Source: Candidatus Desantisiibacteriota bacterium
GTDB taxonomy: Bacteria > JACRDZ01
Length of the DNA: 12,217 bases
Assembly: GCA_016209155.1 (NCBI GenBank)
Contig: JACQWU010000093.1
Coordinates: 1-12,217, forward strand
Direction: 5' to 3'
Below the pieces are notes generated by a model. That model made no database searches, was not told the DNA's origin, and saw nothing but the letters and a program-made list of their open reading frames with translations. Every line of letters begins with the position of its first letter. Position 1 is the stretch's first letter. Below, one piece after another: positions 4,344 to 12,110 of this stretch. The position numbers were made by a program, and so were the translations under genes.

Positions 4344-5633
4344 ATGAAGTCGTTAAAACTTTTTCTCACTATAATTTTTTTATTAATGATATATTTTTAT
4401 TCTAAAAATGAAGCTGCAATAAATCAAAATAACATATTATCTATTCTTGAAAAAAAAACAACTCAAAATTTAAATGATAGTACTTTCATTGGAATTAAAG
4501 AAATCAGTGCTTTACCTCTATATTCTGATATTAAAGAAAATGAAAATGAAAAAATTATCAGAGTACACCTGAAAACTCTAGATGCAAAACTGGCAGTATT
4601 TTCTAAATATTGTTTTTATATAAAAAATCTTGATGATTTAAAAATATATGAAATAAATATGGGGAAATTTTTTATATGGAATAAAAATAATATTACCGTA
4701 GATAATATATCAAGCTTTAAAGGCTTTGAAATTTTTCCATGCTCTAATATGCTTATTTCTATAGATAAAAAAAGATATCGGGGTAAAATATTTATTTATA
4801 ATTCCCCGGACGGAATGATTGTGGTTAATCATGTATCCCTGGAAAAATACCTTTATGGAGTTGTAAGTCGTGAAATTCCTACTACATGGAAAACTGAAGC
4901 TTTAAAAGCACAGGCTGTTGCGGCACGGTCATATGTTTTATACAGATGTATGGAAAACAGCAAAAATAAAAAAAATTTTTATGATATAAAATCCACGGCA
5001 ACTGCCCAGCAATATTGGGGTTATGATTATGAAACGCAAAAAGTCAGGAATGCTGTTGATTCAACTGAAAATATTGTACTGACATATGGGAAAAAGAACA
5101 AGAGACTTGTTGCGGCGTATTACCATTCAAACAGCGGAGGATATACAATAGATGATGTCCATATATGGAATGCAAATTTTGAAAAACCATATTTAGAGGA
5201 AATTGAAGATAAATTTAGTTTAAACACACCAAATAATAAATGGGAGTATGTTTTTAGTTCAGACCGTATGCAAACAATATTAAAAAGATATTACCCCCAG
5301 ATCGGCGAGATAGAAAATATTATTCCTAACAAACTGAGCAAATTCGGACGAGTAATCGAACTTTTGATTACACATAAAAATGGTTCTATATTAATTAATT
5401 CCGAAACTTTCAGAAATAGACTTGGCGCATTCAAAATACGAAGTACACTTTTCAAGATTGAAATGATTGATAATAAATTTGTTTTTACAGGAAAAGGATT
5501 TGGTCATGGAGTAGGGATGAGCCAGTGGGGCATAAAAAAAATGGCAGATTCAGGCTATAAATATAAAGATATTCTAAAATATTATTATATTAATACTGAA
5601 TTAAATATATATAAAAATAATCTTTACTTGTAA
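4344..5633 (+). CDS. spoIID: SpoIID/LytB-domain cell-wall protein
   Basis: This 429-residue protein has a hydrophobic N-terminal segment (about residues 5-20) after a basic start, with no lipobox. It is therefore an uncleaved anchor or signal peptide, and the rest lies outside the cytoplasmic membrane. The SpoIID domain runs from about 155 to the C-terminus. It shows LEKYLYGVVSREIP, in which E177 corresponds to the catalytic glutamate of SpoIID, and EALKAQAVAARSY. HSNSGGYT follows at 261-268, and GKGFGHGVGMSQWG at 383-396. SpoIID is a lytic transglycosylase that cuts glycan strands lacking stem peptides. Relatives with this domain occur in many bacteria that do not form spores, and nothing else in this window points to sporulation, so a role in wall remodelling or division is more likely. 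The N-terminal 150 residues are not recognised. GAGG (4332-4335) gives a good ribosome binding site eight bases before the start. The gene follows the csp terminator and must have its own promoter. Confidence 0.85.
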   Translation: MKSLKLFLTIIFLLMIYFYSKNEAAINQNNILSILEKKTTQNLNDSTFIGIKEISALPLYSDIKENENEKIIRVHLKTLDAKLAVFSKYCFYIKNLDDLKIYEINMGKFFIWNKNNITVDNISSFKGFEIFPCSNMLISIDKKRYRGKIFIYNSPDGMIVVNHVSLEKYLYGVVSREIPTTWKTEALKAQAVAARSYVLYRCMENSKNKKNFYDIKSTATAQQYWGYDYETQKVRNAVDSTENIVLTYGKKNKRLVAAYYHSNSGGYTIDDVHIWNANFEKPYLEEIEDKFSLNTPNNKWEYVFSSDRMQTILKRYYPQIGEIENIIPNKLSKFGRVIELLITHKNGSILINSETFRNRLGAFKIRSTLFKIEMIDNKFVFTGKGFGHGVGMSQWGIKKMADSGYKYKDILKYYYINTELNIYKNNLYL

Positions 5634-5640
5634 ATTATAA

Positions 5641-5670
5641 TACCTGAATCTTACACTTCAGATTCAGGTA
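5641..5670 (+). repeat. Hairpin repeat, copy 2
   Basis: TACCTGAATCT (5641-5651) and AGATTCAGGTA (5660-5670) form a perfect 11-bp stem with an eight-base loop. It begins eight bases after the SpoIID-type gene stops. No T-run follows, so it is not a standard terminator. Copy 1 at 1403-1430 is inverted and matches 26 of 28 bases. The change that separates the copies in the outer arm (GG against CG) breaks pairing in copy 1, so copy 2 is the better-preserved palindrome. Confidence 0.75.
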
Positions 5671-5792
5671 AAATCGCCAGGACGCCCGAAAGACAAGTCT
5701 GGCAGGTGATTTTACGACGCAACCGTACTTAACCAGTACGGTGAGGAGCAAAGTCGCCGAAGACGCGGGATTTCGGAAAGTATTGGCGATTT
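5671..5792. other. Structured multi-branch element, family not recognised
   Basis: The ends AAATCGCC (5671-5678) and GGCGATTT (5785-5792) pair perfectly and close the whole segment. Inside are a bulged helix (5679-5683 with 5697-5700) and CGAC (5715-5718) with GTCG (5753-5756). That second helix encloses a perfect eight-bp hairpin, ACCGTACT with AGTACGGT, around loop TAACC (5730-5734). A third helix pairs CCGAA (5757-5761) with TTCGG (5772-5776). The left closing arm can also pair with GGTGATTTTA (5705-5714), so two folds compete. The segment is clearly less AT-rich than the DNA around it. It lies between two convergent genes, next to the hairpin repeat. It could be a dispersed repeat, a non-autonomous mobile element or a small RNA; strand unknown. 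I compared it by eye with c-di-GMP, cobalamin and other riboswitch consensuses and with group II intron domain V, without a match. Confidence 0.55.
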
Positions 5793-5801
5793 CATATATT
5801 T

Positions 5802-8800
5802 TTATTCTATATTTCCATTAGGATCGGTTTTTATCAGGTATATATCCATCATTCCTGATATCCCGGTAATAATATATCCTCTATCCTGAGTTTCTTCAAC
5901 CGAATATCCGCAATCATAGGCTGCTCCGCCGAATGTTTTTTCCCATTGTTTATTTCCCGTGGAATCTGTTTTTATAAGATAAATATCGTCCATCCCGCTG
6001 GGACCCGGGAAGATTGATCCGCCAATAATATAACCATTATCTTTTGTCTGCTTTACTGAATATCCATGCTCTTCACCTGTACCGCCAAATGTTGTATCCC
6101 ATATTTTATTCCCATTCGAATCGGTTTTAATAAGATAAACATCACTTGAACTCGATGAATTTGTAGAACCGGTAATAATATAACCTGAATCCTCTGTCTC
6201 CTCTACTGATTCCCCGAAATCATCGGTTACTCCTCCAAATTTTTTTGTCCATGTTGTATCTCCGCTGGAATTTGTTTTTACAAGATAAAAATCAGATGAA
6301 TTTTCCGGTGAGTTTGTTGATCCTATTATAATATAATTACCGTTTTTTGTTTCCAGAATAGATTTGCCCCAATCACTATTTACTGTCCCTAATGTTTTTG
6401 CCCACGCAGTATTTCCGGTTGAATCTGTTTTCATAAAATAGATATCAGAATTACTATATGTATTGCCGACTATAACATAGCCTTTATCGGATGCCTGTCG
6501 CACCGAATATTGTGTGCTGCTTACTTCTCCGTATGTTTTTGTCCATGTTGTGTCACCGGTTGAGTCTGTTTTTACTAAATACAAACGATTAGCATCAGTA
6601 TAATTGGTTCCGGCAATAATATAACCTCCGTCAAAAGTCACCTGAGAAGAACTTGATCTTGCTAAAGAACCGCCGTATGTTTTTGTCCATGTTGTGTCAC
6701 CAGTTGAGTCTGTTTTTATAAGATACATACCAGTTTTAATTCCCGATACAAAATAACCTCCATCAGATGTTTGATGCGCTGATCTGCCTCCGTCTGTTCC
6801 TGTGAATATTTTAGAGAATTTAATCGGTAAATTAACTGTTGTAAATGTCCATATATAAAACTCATTTAAATTATTCCCGGCTTCATCTTTTACCCCTGTT
6901 GTAATTGTAGCAGTATATGTAGTGTTATAATCAAGATTTACTGATGGTGTAAATATTGCGATTTTATTATTATAAGTCACACTGCCGTTAATATCATTTA
7001 CTCCATTATTTACTTTAAATGTATAGATATCAAAAGTTGTTGAATCCATATCTTCACTAAATGTTGCTTTTATTGATGAATAAACATCTACTTTTACCGC
7101 ATTATTTAACGGAATAGTCGATATGATTGCAGGGGGTGTTATATCCTGTATTTTTGTTCTGAAACTCCATGCATAATTATTATTCATCTCATTTCCCGCA
7201 TTATCTTTTGCCCTTGCAAAAACCGTTGCAGTATATGATTTATTATAAGATAAAGAGCTTGATGGGATAAAGGTTGCTGCATTATTACTGTATATAACTG
7301 CTCCGGAAATTTCATTACCTCCTTCTGATAATTTAAAAGTATCCGTTGAAATCATTGAAATATCCATATTCTCGGTAAACGTTACAGTAATCGAAGAATT
7401 TATTGATATCCCCTGTTCATTATTCACCGGTGATGTTGATAGAACCTCAGGCGGCGTTGTGTCAGATACTGTACCTGATGTAAAATTCCATGTGTATAAA
7501 TTTGTTATTGCATTTCCGGCTGCATCTTTAACTCCTGTGCTAATAGTTGCTGTATATAATGTTGATTTAGTTAATACAGCTAACGGAGTAAATACCGCCG
7601 TTTGATTTTTGTATATTAAAGTACCGAATATACTACTCCCGCCATTTTTCAATGTAAATGCACCTGTGGTAATAGTAGAGGCATCCATGTCTTCATTAAA
7701 TTTTGCGATAATTGAAGTATTTATCGGTATTCCTTCCGCATTATTTGCCGGAGCAGTTGATGAAACTTCCGGAGGTATTATATCAGCAGGGATTGTTGTA
7801 AAACTCCAGACATAATTATTAATCATCTCATTCCCTGAACGATCTTTAACCACTGCAAAAATTGTGGCAGTGTATGATTTAGAATAAGTTAGCTGGCTTG
7901 AAGGTGTGAATGTTGCTGTTCTATTGTTATATGCTACAGTACCTGTGATGTTGTTTCCCCCGTCTGTTACTGCAAAAGCAGATATTGTAATAGATGTAGA
8001 ATCCATATTTTTATCAAATGTTGCTTTGATTGAGTCTGTTACAGCTATATTTATTGTGTTATTGGCTGGAATTGTTGATACAACTTGAGGCGGTGTTGTA
8101 TCAGGAGCCGGACCTGTTGTAAAGTTAAATGTATATTCATTTGCCATGGCATTTCCGGATATATCCTTTACACCTGTTGTGATTTTTGCTGTATATAATG
8201 TTAAATAAGATAGATTCTCCAGTGGAGTGAAAATAATGCTTGTTCCATTATAAGATGTATTCCCGAGTATATTATTCCCATTAACAGACACTTTAAATGT
8301 AGATGTGTTAATGGTTGATGCCATTAAATTTTCACTGAATGTTGCAATAATAGGAATATTTGCAAAGACATTGACAGCATTATTTGCCGGGGCAGTAGCT
8401 ATAACCACCGGCAGGGTGATATCAGATGAATTATTAATTATCCATTTTATATTAACAGGGATATCACTTCCTGTTCTTGTCCCATCTCCAAGCTGTCCAT
8501 TATCATTATCCCCCCAGGTCAGGACTTTGCCGTCATTTTTTAATGCCATATTATGGTAATATCCGCAAGTAATATCTATAATATCAGTTAACTCATCAAC
8601 CTCATTCCAATTATATTTAAAATCAAAATATATTGATGAATATCCGCTCCAAACAGTTCCGTCATTTTTTAGTGCTAAACTGCGATTGCCCCCGCTTGCA
8701 ATAGCTATAACATTTTGTAATATATCTATTTTTACAGGCGTTTCTCTTATATATTCACCGCCGGAAAATGAAGGGATCCCGAAACTGCCGCCTCCATATG

Positions 8801-11800
8801 AAACACTGACCCATGAACCATTATATCCCCATGTCCAGACAGTTCCGTCTTTTTTTAATGCAAGACTGTGATTTTTTCCGGCGGCAATAGCAACAATATC
8901 TATTAATCCGTTAGTTTTAACAGGAACAGCTGTTTCGGTTCTTGTTCCATTACCAAGCTGCCCATAATCATTTTTTCCCCAAGCCCAGACAGTACCGTCA
9001 TTTTTCAATACGAGAGAGTAATCCTCACCTCCTGCAATTGCAATAACATCTGATATTGCATTAACCAGTACAGGGATCGTTGTATCTATTTTTGTACCAT
9101 TACCAAGCTGCCCGTAATTGTTCCTTCCCCATAACCAGACTGTGCCGTTTTTTTTCAACGCAAGGCTGTGATTCCATCCTCCTGCAATTTCAATAATATC
9201 TGATATCCCGTTAACCTGTACCGGAATTGTTGTATCGGTTTTTGTCCCAATTCCAAGCTGTCCATAGTTATTATATCCCCAGGTCCAAACCAGCCCGTCT
9301 TCTTTTAATGCAATACTATGGGATTTTCCATCAGCAATTGCAATTACATCTGTCAGTCTACTAACTTGAACAGGGATAGTTGTATCAGTTCTCGTTCCAT
9401 TCCCAAGCTGTCCATAATTATTATTTCCCCATGTCCAGACTGTGCAATCATTTCGCAATGCCATACTATATTTCGATCCGCCTGCGATAGTTACTACATC
9501 TATAAATCCTTTTACTTCAACCGGCGTGTTTCTATCATTTCCGCTTCCGTCTCCAAGCTGTCCTTTATCATTACTTCCCCATGCCCAAACAGTACCATCA
9601 TTTTTTAATGCCATATTATGATAATATCCGCAAGCAACAACTGCAATATTATCAAATCCATTTACAGCATTCCAATTATATTTAAAATCAGAATACACCC
9701 CATTCCCTGCCCAAACAGTACCATCATTAGTTAGTGCTACACTGCGATTATCCCCGCTTGCAATAGCTATAATATTTTTTAAATTATCAATCTTCTCGGG
9801 AGTTTGTCTTATATATTCTCCCCCGGAAAATGTAGGAAAACTAAAACTGCCGCCACCATACGATACGCTAAACCATGAGCCGTTATATCCCCATATCCAG
9901 ACAGTCCCATCATTTTTTAATGCAAGGCTGTGTTTTTTTCCGCAGGCAATTGCAATAATATCTGTTAATAAATTAACTTTAACCGGAATTGCCGTATCAA
10001 TTTTTGTTCCATTACCAAGCTGTCCGCAATTATTTGTACCCCATGCCCATATAGTACCATCATTTTTTAATGCTATATTGTGATTATCACCGCAAGCAAT
10101 AGATGTTATATTTGTCAGATCATTAATTTTAACAGGACTTGCATTATTATTTCCCCAAATCCAGACAGTACCGTCCTTTTTTAATGCTAAGTTATGCGAT
10201 TTTCCACCGGCAACAGCTAAAACATTTGTAATTTTTGTTTTAAAAGCCATACTTCTTTTTGAAACTGTTGATTCATCCCCAAGCTGTTTTTTGTCGTTAT
10301 TTCCCCATGTCCATACTATCCCGTCTTTCAAAGCCAGGCTGTGAGCTGCTCCGCCTGCAATAGCTGTTATTTTTATATCACCCGGAATTACAGTAGTAAA
10401 ATTCCATTTATAACTCCCGGGCATTGCATTCCCGGCTAAATCTTTAACCCCCGGGTTAATCATTGCGGTATACGGGCTTAAATAATTCAATTCTTTTGCT
10501 GGTGTAAATAAAGCAGTAGTTCCTTCATATGTTATACTTCCTGTAATATTATTCCCTGCTGAGGATAATCTGAATGTTGTGGTATCAATGGTCGAAGGAT
10601 CGATATTTTCATTGAAATTAGCAGCAATTAAAGTATTTGTTGTAATGTTTTTTGTCCAGCGTGCCGGTGTTGTTGATACAACCGCCGGCGGAGTTATATC
10701 CGGTGCGGATATTGTCTTAAAACTCGAAGCATAATTACCTCCTGTTAAAGCATTTCCTGCAATATCCTTAATATCAGCTGATATTATAATATTATATGAG
10801 GTTGAATAATCTAATAGTACTAATGGTATAAATGCCGCTTTTGTACCGGTAAAGGTTATTTTACCGGAAATTTCATCTCCATTTTCTGCAATTACTTTAA
10901 AAGTTTCTGTTGTAATAATAGAAGAATCCATTATCTCACTAAAAACCACTTCAATCATAGCTTCTCTTGAAATATTTATTGCATTATTTGCAGGATTGAC
11001 AGATATAATTTTAGGGGGTGTTATATCCGCAGTTGTAAAATTCCAGGAATAAAATATTTTTGATATTAAATTACCTTCCGTGTCTTTAATTTCAATGTTA
11101 ATCGTTGCTGTATATAATGTTGCATAGGATAAATTACTCATAGGGATAAATGCTGCTGTTGTGCCTTTATATGTTACAGTTCCATAAATATTTTTTTCAT
11201 TATCAGATAAAGTAAATATTACGGAATTAATTGCAGATACATTTATATTTTTATTAAATTCCACTTTTATTACAGCATTAACAGGTACTCCTGTTGCATC
11301 AACAGATGGTGATATCGATGAAATTTCAGGCGGCATTTGAAGAGCAGCAGTTTTAAAGCTCCATGCATAATTATCAACAGATATATTCCCTGCATTATCT
11401 TTAATCCCTGCAAAAATAGTAACAGTATATGAAGTTGAATAGGCTAACTGTTCAGATGGTATAAATCTAATTCCCGTGTTATTTATTATTAGAGTTCCAT
11501 CAATTTTTTTCGCATCATCTCCGACAACTGTAATAATGTTTCTGTTTATCCCTGTCGTGTCTATATCCTCATTAAATGATACTGTGATAATAGTATTTAC
11601 GGGAACATCCTGTGCATCTTTAGCAGGATTTGTCTCTGTAATTACCGGAGCTGTGATATTATGAGTTGATTCTGTTATAAAATACCATGAAAAATTACTT
11701 TCCATTTTATTTCCATCTTTATCTTTAACATCTTTTGAAATTATTGCGGAATAGAGACTTGAGGAATACAAATTATTCGATGGTGAGAAGGTTGCTGTTG

Positions 11801-12110
11801 AATCAGTGCATATAACAGTCCCGCTTATATTACTGCCGCCCGTTGTAACTATAAATGTAGATGTGTTTATCGTTGATGTATCCATAGTTCTATTGAATTT
11901 TGCAGATATTGTAGTATTTGTTGCAATATTTGCGGCAAAATTTGCAGGACTTGTTGATACTACTGCCGGCGAAATTTTATTCTGTTGATTTGATGCGGAT
12001 TGATCAGCAGCAGTATTTGAATCATTGCTAGAATTTTTGCCGCAGCCAATTAACAATAAAAATAAAATAACAGGAAGATAAAACGATTTAATACATTTTA
12101 AATTTTTCAT
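5802..12110 (-). CDS. Giant modular surface lipoprotein with Ig-like, RCC1 and propeller repeats
   Basis: This 2102-residue protein begins with a lipoprotein signal: basic start, hydrophobic core at about 9-21, lipobox LIGC, and lipidated cysteine C23. A low-complexity Ser/Asn linker follows to about residue 46. Then come five Big_5-type Ig-like domains (47-575), thirteen RCC1-type repeats (579-1225), five more Big_5-type domains (1235-1757) and seven repeats of about 47 residues (1770-2102). There is no C-terminal sorting domain, anchor or enzyme motif. The protein ends inside the last repeat pattern (TDPNGNIE). Such architecture implies an extended, exported protein, held by its lipid, that presents propellers for binding. 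The ligand is unknown. AAGGAG, read on the minus strand at 12117-12122, lies six bases before the ATG, so the start is secure. Frame and codon use stay uniform throughout and there is no internal break. It converges on the SpoIID-type gene and has no visible partner in the window. Confidence 0.9.
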   Translation of the reverse strand: MKNLKCIKSFYLPVILFLLLIGCGKNSSNDSNTAADQSASNQQNKISPAVVSTSPANFAANIATNTTISAKFNRTMDTSTINTSTFIVTTGGSNISGTVICTDSTATFSPSNNLYSSSLYSAIISKDVKDKDGNKMESNFSWYFITESTHNITAPVITETNPAKDAQDVPVNTIITVSFNEDIDTTGINRNIITVVGDDAKKIDGTLIINNTGIRFIPSEQLAYSTSYTVTIFAGIKDNAGNISVDNYAWSFKTAALQMPPEISSISPSVDATGVPVNAVIKVEFNKNINVSAINSVIFTLSDNEKNIYGTVTYKGTTAAFIPMSNLSYATLYTATINIEIKDTEGNLISKIFYSWNFTTADITPPKIISVNPANNAINISREAMIEVVFSEIMDSSIITTETFKVIAENGDEISGKITFTGTKAAFIPLVLLDYSTSYNIIISADIKDIAGNALTGGNYASSFKTISAPDITPPAVVSTTPARWTKNITTNTLIAANFNENIDPSTIDTTTFRLSSAGNNITGSITYEGTTALFTPAKELNYLSPYTAMINPGVKDLAGNAMPGSYKWNFTTVIPGDIKITAIAGGAAHSLALKDGIVWTWGNNDKKQLGDESTVSKRSMAFKTKITNVLAVAGGKSHNLALKKDGTVWIWGNNNASPVKINDLTNITSIACGDNHNIALKNDGTIWAWGTNNCGQLGNGTKIDTAIPVKVNLLTDIIAIACGKKHSLALKNDGTVWIWGYNGSWFSVSYGGGSFSFPTFSGGEYIRQTPEKIDNLKNIIAIASGDNRSVALTNDGTVWAGNGVYSDFKYNWNAVNGFDNIAVVACGYYHNMALKNDGTVWAWGSNDKGQLGDGSGNDRNTPVEVKGFIDVVTIAGGSKYSMALRNDCTVWTWGNNNYGQLGNGTRTDTTIPVQVSRLTDVIAIADGKSHSIALKEDGLVWTWGYNNYGQLGIGTKTDTTIPVQVNGISDIIEIAGGWNHSLALKKNGTVWLWGRNNYGQLGNGTKIDTTIPVLVNAISDVIAIAGGEDYSLVLKNDGTVWAWGKNDYGQLGNGTRTETAVPVKTNGLIDIVAIAAGKNHSLALKKDGTVWTWGYNGSWVSVSYGGGSFGIPSFSGGEYIRETPVKIDILQNVIAIASGGNRSLALKNDGTVWSGYSSIYFDFKYNWNEVDELTDIIDITCGYYHNMALKNDGKVLTWGDNDNGQLGDGTRTGSDIPVNIKWIINNSSDITLPVVIATAPANNAVNVFANIPIIATFSENLMASTINTSTFKVSVNGNNILGNTSYNGTSIIFTPLENLSYLTLYTAKITTGVKDISGNAMANEYTFNFTTGPAPDTTPPQVVSTIPANNTINIAVTDSIKATFDKNMDSTSITISAFAVTDGGNNITGTVAYNNRTATFTPSSQLTYSKSYTATIFAVVKDRSGNEMINNYVWSFTTIPADIIPPEVSSTAPANNAEGIPINTSIIAKFNEDMDASTITTGAFTLKNGGSSIFGTLIYKNQTAVFTPLAVLTKSTLYTATISTGVKDAAGNAITNLYTWNFTSGTVSDTTPPEVLSTSPVNNEQGISINSSITVTFTENMDISMISTDTFKLSEGGNEISGAVIYSNNAATFIPSSSLSYNKSYTATVFARAKDNAGNEMNNNYAWSFRTKIQDITPPAIISTIPLNNAVKVDVYSSIKATFSEDMDSTTFDIYTFKVNNGVNDINGSVTYNNKIAIFTPSVNLDYNTTYTATITTGVKDEAGNNLNEFYIWTFTTVNLPIKFSKIFTGTDGGRSAHQTSDGGYFVSGIKTGMYLIKTDSTGDTTWTKTYGGSLARSSSSQVTFDGGYIIAGTNYTDANRLYLVKTDSTGDTTWTKTYGEVSSTQYSVRQASDKGYVIVGNTYSNSDIYFMKTDSTGNTAWAKTLGTVNSDWGKSILETKNGNYIIIGSTNSPENSSDFYLVKTNSSGDTTWTKKFGGVTDDFGESVEETEDSGYIITGSTNSSSSSDVYLIKTDSNGNKIWDTTFGGTGEEHGYSVKQTKDNGYIIGGSIFPGPSGMDDIYLIKTDSTGNKQWEKTFGGAAYDCGYSVEETQDRGYIITGISGMMDIYLIKTDPNGNIE
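5805..6803 (-). repeat. Seven C-terminal propeller-like repeats of the giant lipoprotein
   Basis: Residues 1770-2102 contain seven units of 42-52 residues. Each follows the pattern S-V-x-x-T-x-D-x-G-Y-I-I-x-G-(T/S), then D-x-Y-L-I-K-T-D-S-x-G-x-x-x-W-x-K-T-(Y/F)-G-G. Units start at about 1770, 1813, 1861, 1908, 1959, 2009 and 2061. The repeating four-strand-like spacing and the count of seven suggest a complete seven-bladed beta-propeller. This is inference; I do not assign a Pfam name. Units one and two share an almost identical DNA stretch. Confidence 0.8.
6840..8408 (-). repeat. Second array of five Big_5-type Ig-like domains
   Basis: Residues 1235-1757 hold five domains of about 106 residues, starting near 1235, 1342, 1448, 1555 and 1661. 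Each has the Big_5 pattern: P-x-N-N at the start, then I-x-A-x-F-x-E-x-M-D-x-S-T-I and G-x-x-Y-x-x-x-x-A-x-F-T-P. The domain ends with Y-T-A-T-I-x-x-G-V-K-D-x-x-G-N and W-x-F-T-T. Linkers end in the recurring D-x-T-P-P. The array probably acts as a rod separating the RCC1 region from the C-terminal repeats. Confidence 0.88.
8436..10376 (-). repeat. Thirteen RCC1-type repeats
   Basis: Residues 579-1225 hold thirteen units. A full unit is 50 residues with the core A-I-A-x-G-x-x-H-S-L-A-L-K-x-D-G-T-V-W-x-W-G-x-N-x-x-G-Q-L-G-x-G-T. Units start at about 579, 632, 670, 720, 782, 824, 874, 924, 974, 1024, 1074, 1136 and 1179. Units 2, 5 and 12 lack the GQLG segment, and units 4 and 11 carry a longer glycine-rich insert (GSFxxPxFSGGEYIR). 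RCC1 propellers have seven blades, so thirteen units suggest two propellers, one of them one blade short or closed by a divergent strand. Confidence 0.9.
10386..11972 (-). repeat. First array of five Big_5-type Ig-like domains
   Basis: Residues 47-575 hold five domains of about 105 residues, starting near 47, 156, 262, 367 and 476, with the same motifs as the second array. They are more divergent from one another than the later five: for instance, the aspartate after I/M in the E-x-M-D motif is replaced in the third domain (NKNINVS). The array sits directly after the Ser/Asn linker that follows the lipidated cysteine and would lift the RCC1 region off the membrane. Confidence 0.88.

Follow-up and report, generated by a model that had tools for sequence, protein, structure and literature searches.

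Short hairpins dispersed in many copies between bacterial genes are familiar from the REPs, whose partner is a RAYT (Y1-type) transposase and which come without target duplications. The described systems closest to the locus presented here lie elsewhere, among the insertion sequences of the IS1380 family. ISEcp1, a member of this family, has CCTAGATTCTACGT as its left inverted repeat (IRL) and generates 5-bp duplications (PMC7864471), which are found at AT-rich targets (PMC7527135). As for MITEs, IS1380 is not mentioned in the part of a 2024 review of the prokaryotic elements considered here (PMC10969869), and no described MITE of the IS1380 family was found.

The window analysed is a contig of 12,217 nucleotides from a Candidatus Desantisiibacteriota bacterium. 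Its segment 5641–5793 lies between two convergent genes, which are given for context only: a SpoIID-domain protein on the + strand (4344–5633; PF08486, E 3.8e-26), and a 2102-aa protein on the − strand (5802–12110), in which Pfam recognizes ten Big_5 (Ig-like) stretches and RCC1-like repeats. An earlier note had described this segment as folding beyond chance, with two alternative pairings of its left arm, a composition less AT-rich than the surroundings and no match to a known riboswitch or ribozyme consensus, and each of these observations holds. The + strand fold reaches −66.4 kcal/mol, whereas shuffled sequences average −35.7 (z −8.07), and the − strand fold has a z of −5.99, no shuffle equalling the real sequence on either strand. 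The predicted + strand structure consists of a hairpin (5641–5670) and a closed branched structure (5673–5790), and the left arm TAAAATCGCCA, starting at 5669, has two possible partners in the sequence, TGGCGATTTCA (5784–5794) and GGTGATTTTA (from 5705). The G+C content is 49%, versus 24% and 34% in the 200-bp flanks. No Rfam family attains its gathering score in the whole window; at a permissive threshold, the best match at the site (E 0.27, opposite strand) stays far under the cut-off.

What appeared as an unexplained structured intergenic segment can now be reinterpreted as an insertion event: judging from sequence comparisons, 5641–5793 very probably belongs to a new family of IS1380-type MITEs, as a copy that has lost its right end. 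The host assembly that was searched comprises 3.08 Mb in 352 contigs and is 79% complete; the copy counts derive from these searches. Copies of the whole element, full or nearly so, number about ten, and there are about 35 solo terminal hairpins of left or right type, one of them in the same window. Ten long matches beside the query cover 105–160 bases at 85–96% identity, and many further ones are confined to the first 35 bases of the element. A 13-base end pattern occurs at 78 places of the assembly with at most one mismatch, compared with none for the reversed control. Once merged, these places resolve into full elements and solo hairpins, either left type (CCTGAATCTTGCACTTCAGATTCAGG) or right type (CCTGAATCTTGCATAGCAAGATTCAGG). 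Three other genomes of the phylum and 37 others searched as relatives of the host gave no match.

A complete copy reads CCTGAATCTTGC-hairpin, core of about 120 bp, hairpin-CAGG, with a 5-bp TANTA-type direct repeat outside, CCTGAATCTTGC being found at the left and, inverted, at the right end. The full copy at C321:4579-4765 (L004), for example, shows in order TAATA, the left hairpin, the core AAATCGCC...GGCGATTT, the right hairpin and again TAATA. MITEs were defined by short length (50–500 bp), absence of transposase coding, multiple dispersed copies, terminal inverted repeats and a target-site duplication, and all these features are found in the element, which spans about 165–180 bp between the outer ends of its terminal repeats and has no capacity to encode a transposase.

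In the window, the left copy of the duplicated target, TAATA, occupies 5638–5642 (+ strand). The left end of the element follows at 5643–5668 (+), with its terminal inverted repeat CCTGAATCTTAC set in a 26-bp hairpin that ends in GATTCAGG and has an 11-pair stem (drawn from 5641); the same end is present in all copies. The core, AAATCGCC...GGCGATTT, is a long imperfect hairpin extending over 5669–5793 (+), as delineated by the fold, by copies of 85–94% identity at other places in the genome and by alignment A1. The same alignment places the truncation point at 5793–5801, where the right terminal hairpin of the other copies (CTGAATCTTGCTATGCAAGATTCAGG followed by TANTA) is missing. Segment 5641–5793 thus corresponds to the left hairpin plus the core, and the roughly 30 bp by which other copies extend further are lost here, together with the right copy of the target. 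Without its right end, this copy cannot itself show a duplication. Its neighbour in the window, recognized by genome search and by comparison of ends and duplications, does: this solo left-type hairpin (1403–1428, − strand; 1398–1433 with its flanks) lies between the first two forward genes and has TATAA at both 1398–1402 and 1429–1433. The first gene (tryptophan synthase beta-like) ends 10 bp ahead of it, and 14 bp separate it from the next.

An exact 5-bp direct repeat is observed at the CCTG...CAGG boundary in 23 of 45 complete copies, when 5000 shuffles gave a mean of 6.3 and a maximum of 14, and no signal emerges from the same comparison for 4-bp, 6-bp or other repeat lengths. A 3-bp duplication, considered as well, was replaced by 5 bp after comparing copies with changed end bases. 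Unusual targets are also duplicated (TATGA, TGATA, TTATA, TATTT and AAATA), which identifies a true target-site duplication rather than a target preference alone. Many host insertions start only about 1 bp away from where a predicted ORF ends (e.g., C36:12375, C45:429, C116:8991, C215:5780, C296:7612 and C317:1356); a duplicated TAATA-type target can provide a TAA stop codon, and insertion at a stop would restore the stop. Another dispersed repeat, starting with GGGGCTGTCCAAAAAGGTGC and containing CATTCCCGCGAAGG(C/T)GGGAATCCAG, was seen around position 5990 of contig C27, around 10686 of contig C277 and downstream of the copy in contig C320 (L066, L012 and L003; genome G000). In two places it adjoins the element core at nearly the same base, as if truncating the element.

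Since the ends start with CCT and are bordered by a 5-bp AT-rich duplication, IS1380-family transposases were searched for. A 507-aa ORF of Candidatus Brocadia WS118 (locus L205) matches PF13701 above its cut-off (E 9.6e-23), and matches the NCBIfam IS1380 transposase with E 5.7e-51 and 173.4 bits, slightly below the curated cut-off of 180. It belongs to an element of 1816 bp that carries CCTGAATCTTGCAC at each end and is flanked by AAATA on either side, and the consensus end of the host element is identical to these ends over 14 of 14 bp (CCTGAATCTTGCAC). Past the terminal 13–14 bp, the host core has no similarity to this IS. A second copy, in Ca. Brocadia pituitae (L164), is 96% identical and starts at the same base after TAATA. 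In two other Brocadia IS1380 loci (L202 and L209), the CCTGAATC word is present, but not at convincing ends. Neither PF13701 nor the Brocadia protein detects an IS1380 transposase in the host assembly (79% complete, in 352 contigs); insertion sequences are often missing from fragmented, incomplete assemblies of this kind.

The 5-bp TANTA duplication fits the 4–5 bp AT-rich duplication expected from ISEcp1, and the element was most likely moved by an IS1380-type transposase. This link is suggested by the shared ends and the duplication length, not by a partner observed in the host. The CCTGAATCTTGC ends are of the type on which an IS1380-family DDE transposase acts; supplied in trans, such an enzyme would recognize both CCTGAATC ends. 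Insertion would proceed at AT-rich TANTA sites through a 5-bp staggered cut, giving the full order of TANTA duplication, left hairpin, palindromic core of about 120 bp, right hairpin and TANTA duplication.

Comparable elements can be recognized in other lineages. The exact left hairpin has no match in the genome-contig collection, viral contigs gave none, and neither the MITE nor the Brocadia IS was found in plasmids. A degenerate hairpin pattern with TANTA occurs at 28 places in 84,980 genomes, with several places per genome in Thiotrichaceae, Candidatus Brocadia, a gammaproteobacterial MAG and Magnetococcales; lone matches in Yersinia, Paenibacillus and Aquimarina, devoid of the flanks, may be due to chance. 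Thiotrichaceae and Aquificaceae MAGs contain complete elements of 170–223 bp with CCTGAATCCGTGAG ends and mostly matching TANTA duplications, as well as solo hairpins that likewise have CCTGAATC ends and a duplicated TANTA; the search for an IS1380 transposase gave nothing in these MAGs. A core motif, CTTAACC..GGTGA, seemed to be shared between the host and Thiotrichaceae elements, but their local alignment is no better than that of shuffles, and therefore only the ends and the architecture are common to both. The Thiotrichaceae elements of 222–223 bp (L178, L179, L183 and L185) resemble the 170-bp element with an insertion of about 52 bp carrying its own hairpin. Alignment A2 brings together very similar elements from MAGs of two phyla (Thiotrichaceae and Aquificaceae), in which the strand richer in G-U pairs has the more stable fold, by about 20–29 kcal/mol.

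A structured non-coding RNA gene, or a cis-regulatory RNA, present in several copies would also account for the strong + strand fold (z −8.07) and for inter-copy changes that mostly preserve pairs via G-U (97.7% of cells paired), and eight pairs are changed on both sides among the Thiotrichaceae/Aquificaceae elements (alignment A2). These eight changes, however, split two sub-families, so that few events suffice. In the host family, the compensatory changes proposed earlier as a check of the helices are absent, with 0 of 51 pairs changed on both sides across 11 copies and a covariation score not above that of shuffles. Rfam offers no match, a good fold is seen on both strands, which is what a DNA palindrome would give, and the copies carry target duplications and occur in every gene context: of those scored with mechanically called ORFs, 23 are flanked by tandem genes, 8 by convergent and 6 by divergent ones, 7 overlap predicted ORFs and 5 are near the ends of the sequence segments retrieved. 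The small RNA or new RNA family initially envisaged is thus unsupported and highly improbable. The same distribution bears on the proposal of a bidirectional terminator or barrier selected between converging genes. The site does sit between such genes, and one terminator-like site was detected there on the − strand (5670–5641, 11 pairs, tail TTATAATTTA), versus 0.4 expected; yet only 8 of the 37 scorable intergenic copies are convergent, and the target duplications and IS-like ends would be left unexplained. As the reason for the existence of the element, a two-way barrier is therefore very unlikely, but the left hairpin with TTATAATTTA could terminate transcription of the minus-strand gene as a secondary effect. 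Of the earlier suggestions, the mobile palindromic element is the one that agrees with the dispersed copies, sharp ends, 5-bp duplications and terminal repeats common to an IS1380-family IS. The segment represents a new family within an established class of elements, the MITEs, rather than a new RNA.

Within a mobile-element origin, it could still be argued that mobility resides primarily in the short hairpins, as REP-like units or a transposon of about 26 bp, and that the full element is a pair of them around a core, given that solo hairpins outnumber full copies and bear their own 5-bp duplications. The best reading of the solo hairpins is, however, that of deletion remnants in which the target duplication has been retained. 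Each terminal inverted repeat sits in a palindrome, and the two ends therefore also hold short direct repeats. When every deletion between such repeats was listed, the best predicted products were the host left and right solo hairpins and the Brocadia and Thiotrichaceae ones, with an exact match for the host left type, the Brocadia hairpin (L094) and one Thiotrichaceae hairpin, and a single mismatch for another. The deletion-remnant reading is based on these matches and on host copies C218 and C277, in which the core was lost between two GACGC words. The deletion, probably replication slippage aided by the hairpins, would remove the core, so that a solo hairpin remains, still enclosed by the duplicated target. 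A primary hairpin unit is, by comparison, rather unlikely: solo right-type hairpins have CCTG/CAGG at their two ends, but within full elements the right hairpin terminates in CAGAAATCGCC, as deletion between the two ends predicts; the products match in three lineages; in the autonomous Brocadia IS, the transposase is flanked by a single such end on either side; and REPs lack target duplications. There is also a small chance that solo hairpins are routinely produced by IS1380-type transposition or excision, either as a transposase-made hairpin scar at palindromic ends or as self-moving 26-bp units. If true, this would amount to a transposon footprint, or a minimal transposon, undescribed for the IS1380 family.

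The deletion-remnant reading provides a concrete case of palindromic transposon ends decaying to solo hairpins liable to be taken for RNA genes or terminators, and short hairpins of several phyla (those of the host, Brocadia, Thiotrichaceae and Aquificaceae MAGs) would be tied to one transposase family. With REPs and REPINs, the element shares its many short dispersed intergenic hairpins, but it differs by a 5-bp duplication and a putative DDE-type partner. TIMEs, the Tn3-derived miniature elements, also produce 5-bp duplications at AT-rich targets; Tn3-family repeats are, however, 38 bp long and start with GGGG, in contrast to about 14 bp starting with CCTG here. More generally, bacterial MITEs (Nezha, Chunjie, TIMEs and QMITEs) are similarly short, gene-less and palindromic in their fold, with inverted-repeat ends, a target-site duplication and many copies, but they have other ends, whereas each end of the host elements is a complete hairpin and solo hairpins are left behind in abundance. 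Compared with the IS1380 family (ISEcp1, its relatives and the Brocadia IS), the host element has no transposase gene, a core unrelated to that of the Brocadia IS and about one-tenth of its length, but terminal inverted repeats likewise starting with CCT, identical to the Brocadia ones over 14 bp, and the same 5-bp AT-rich duplication.
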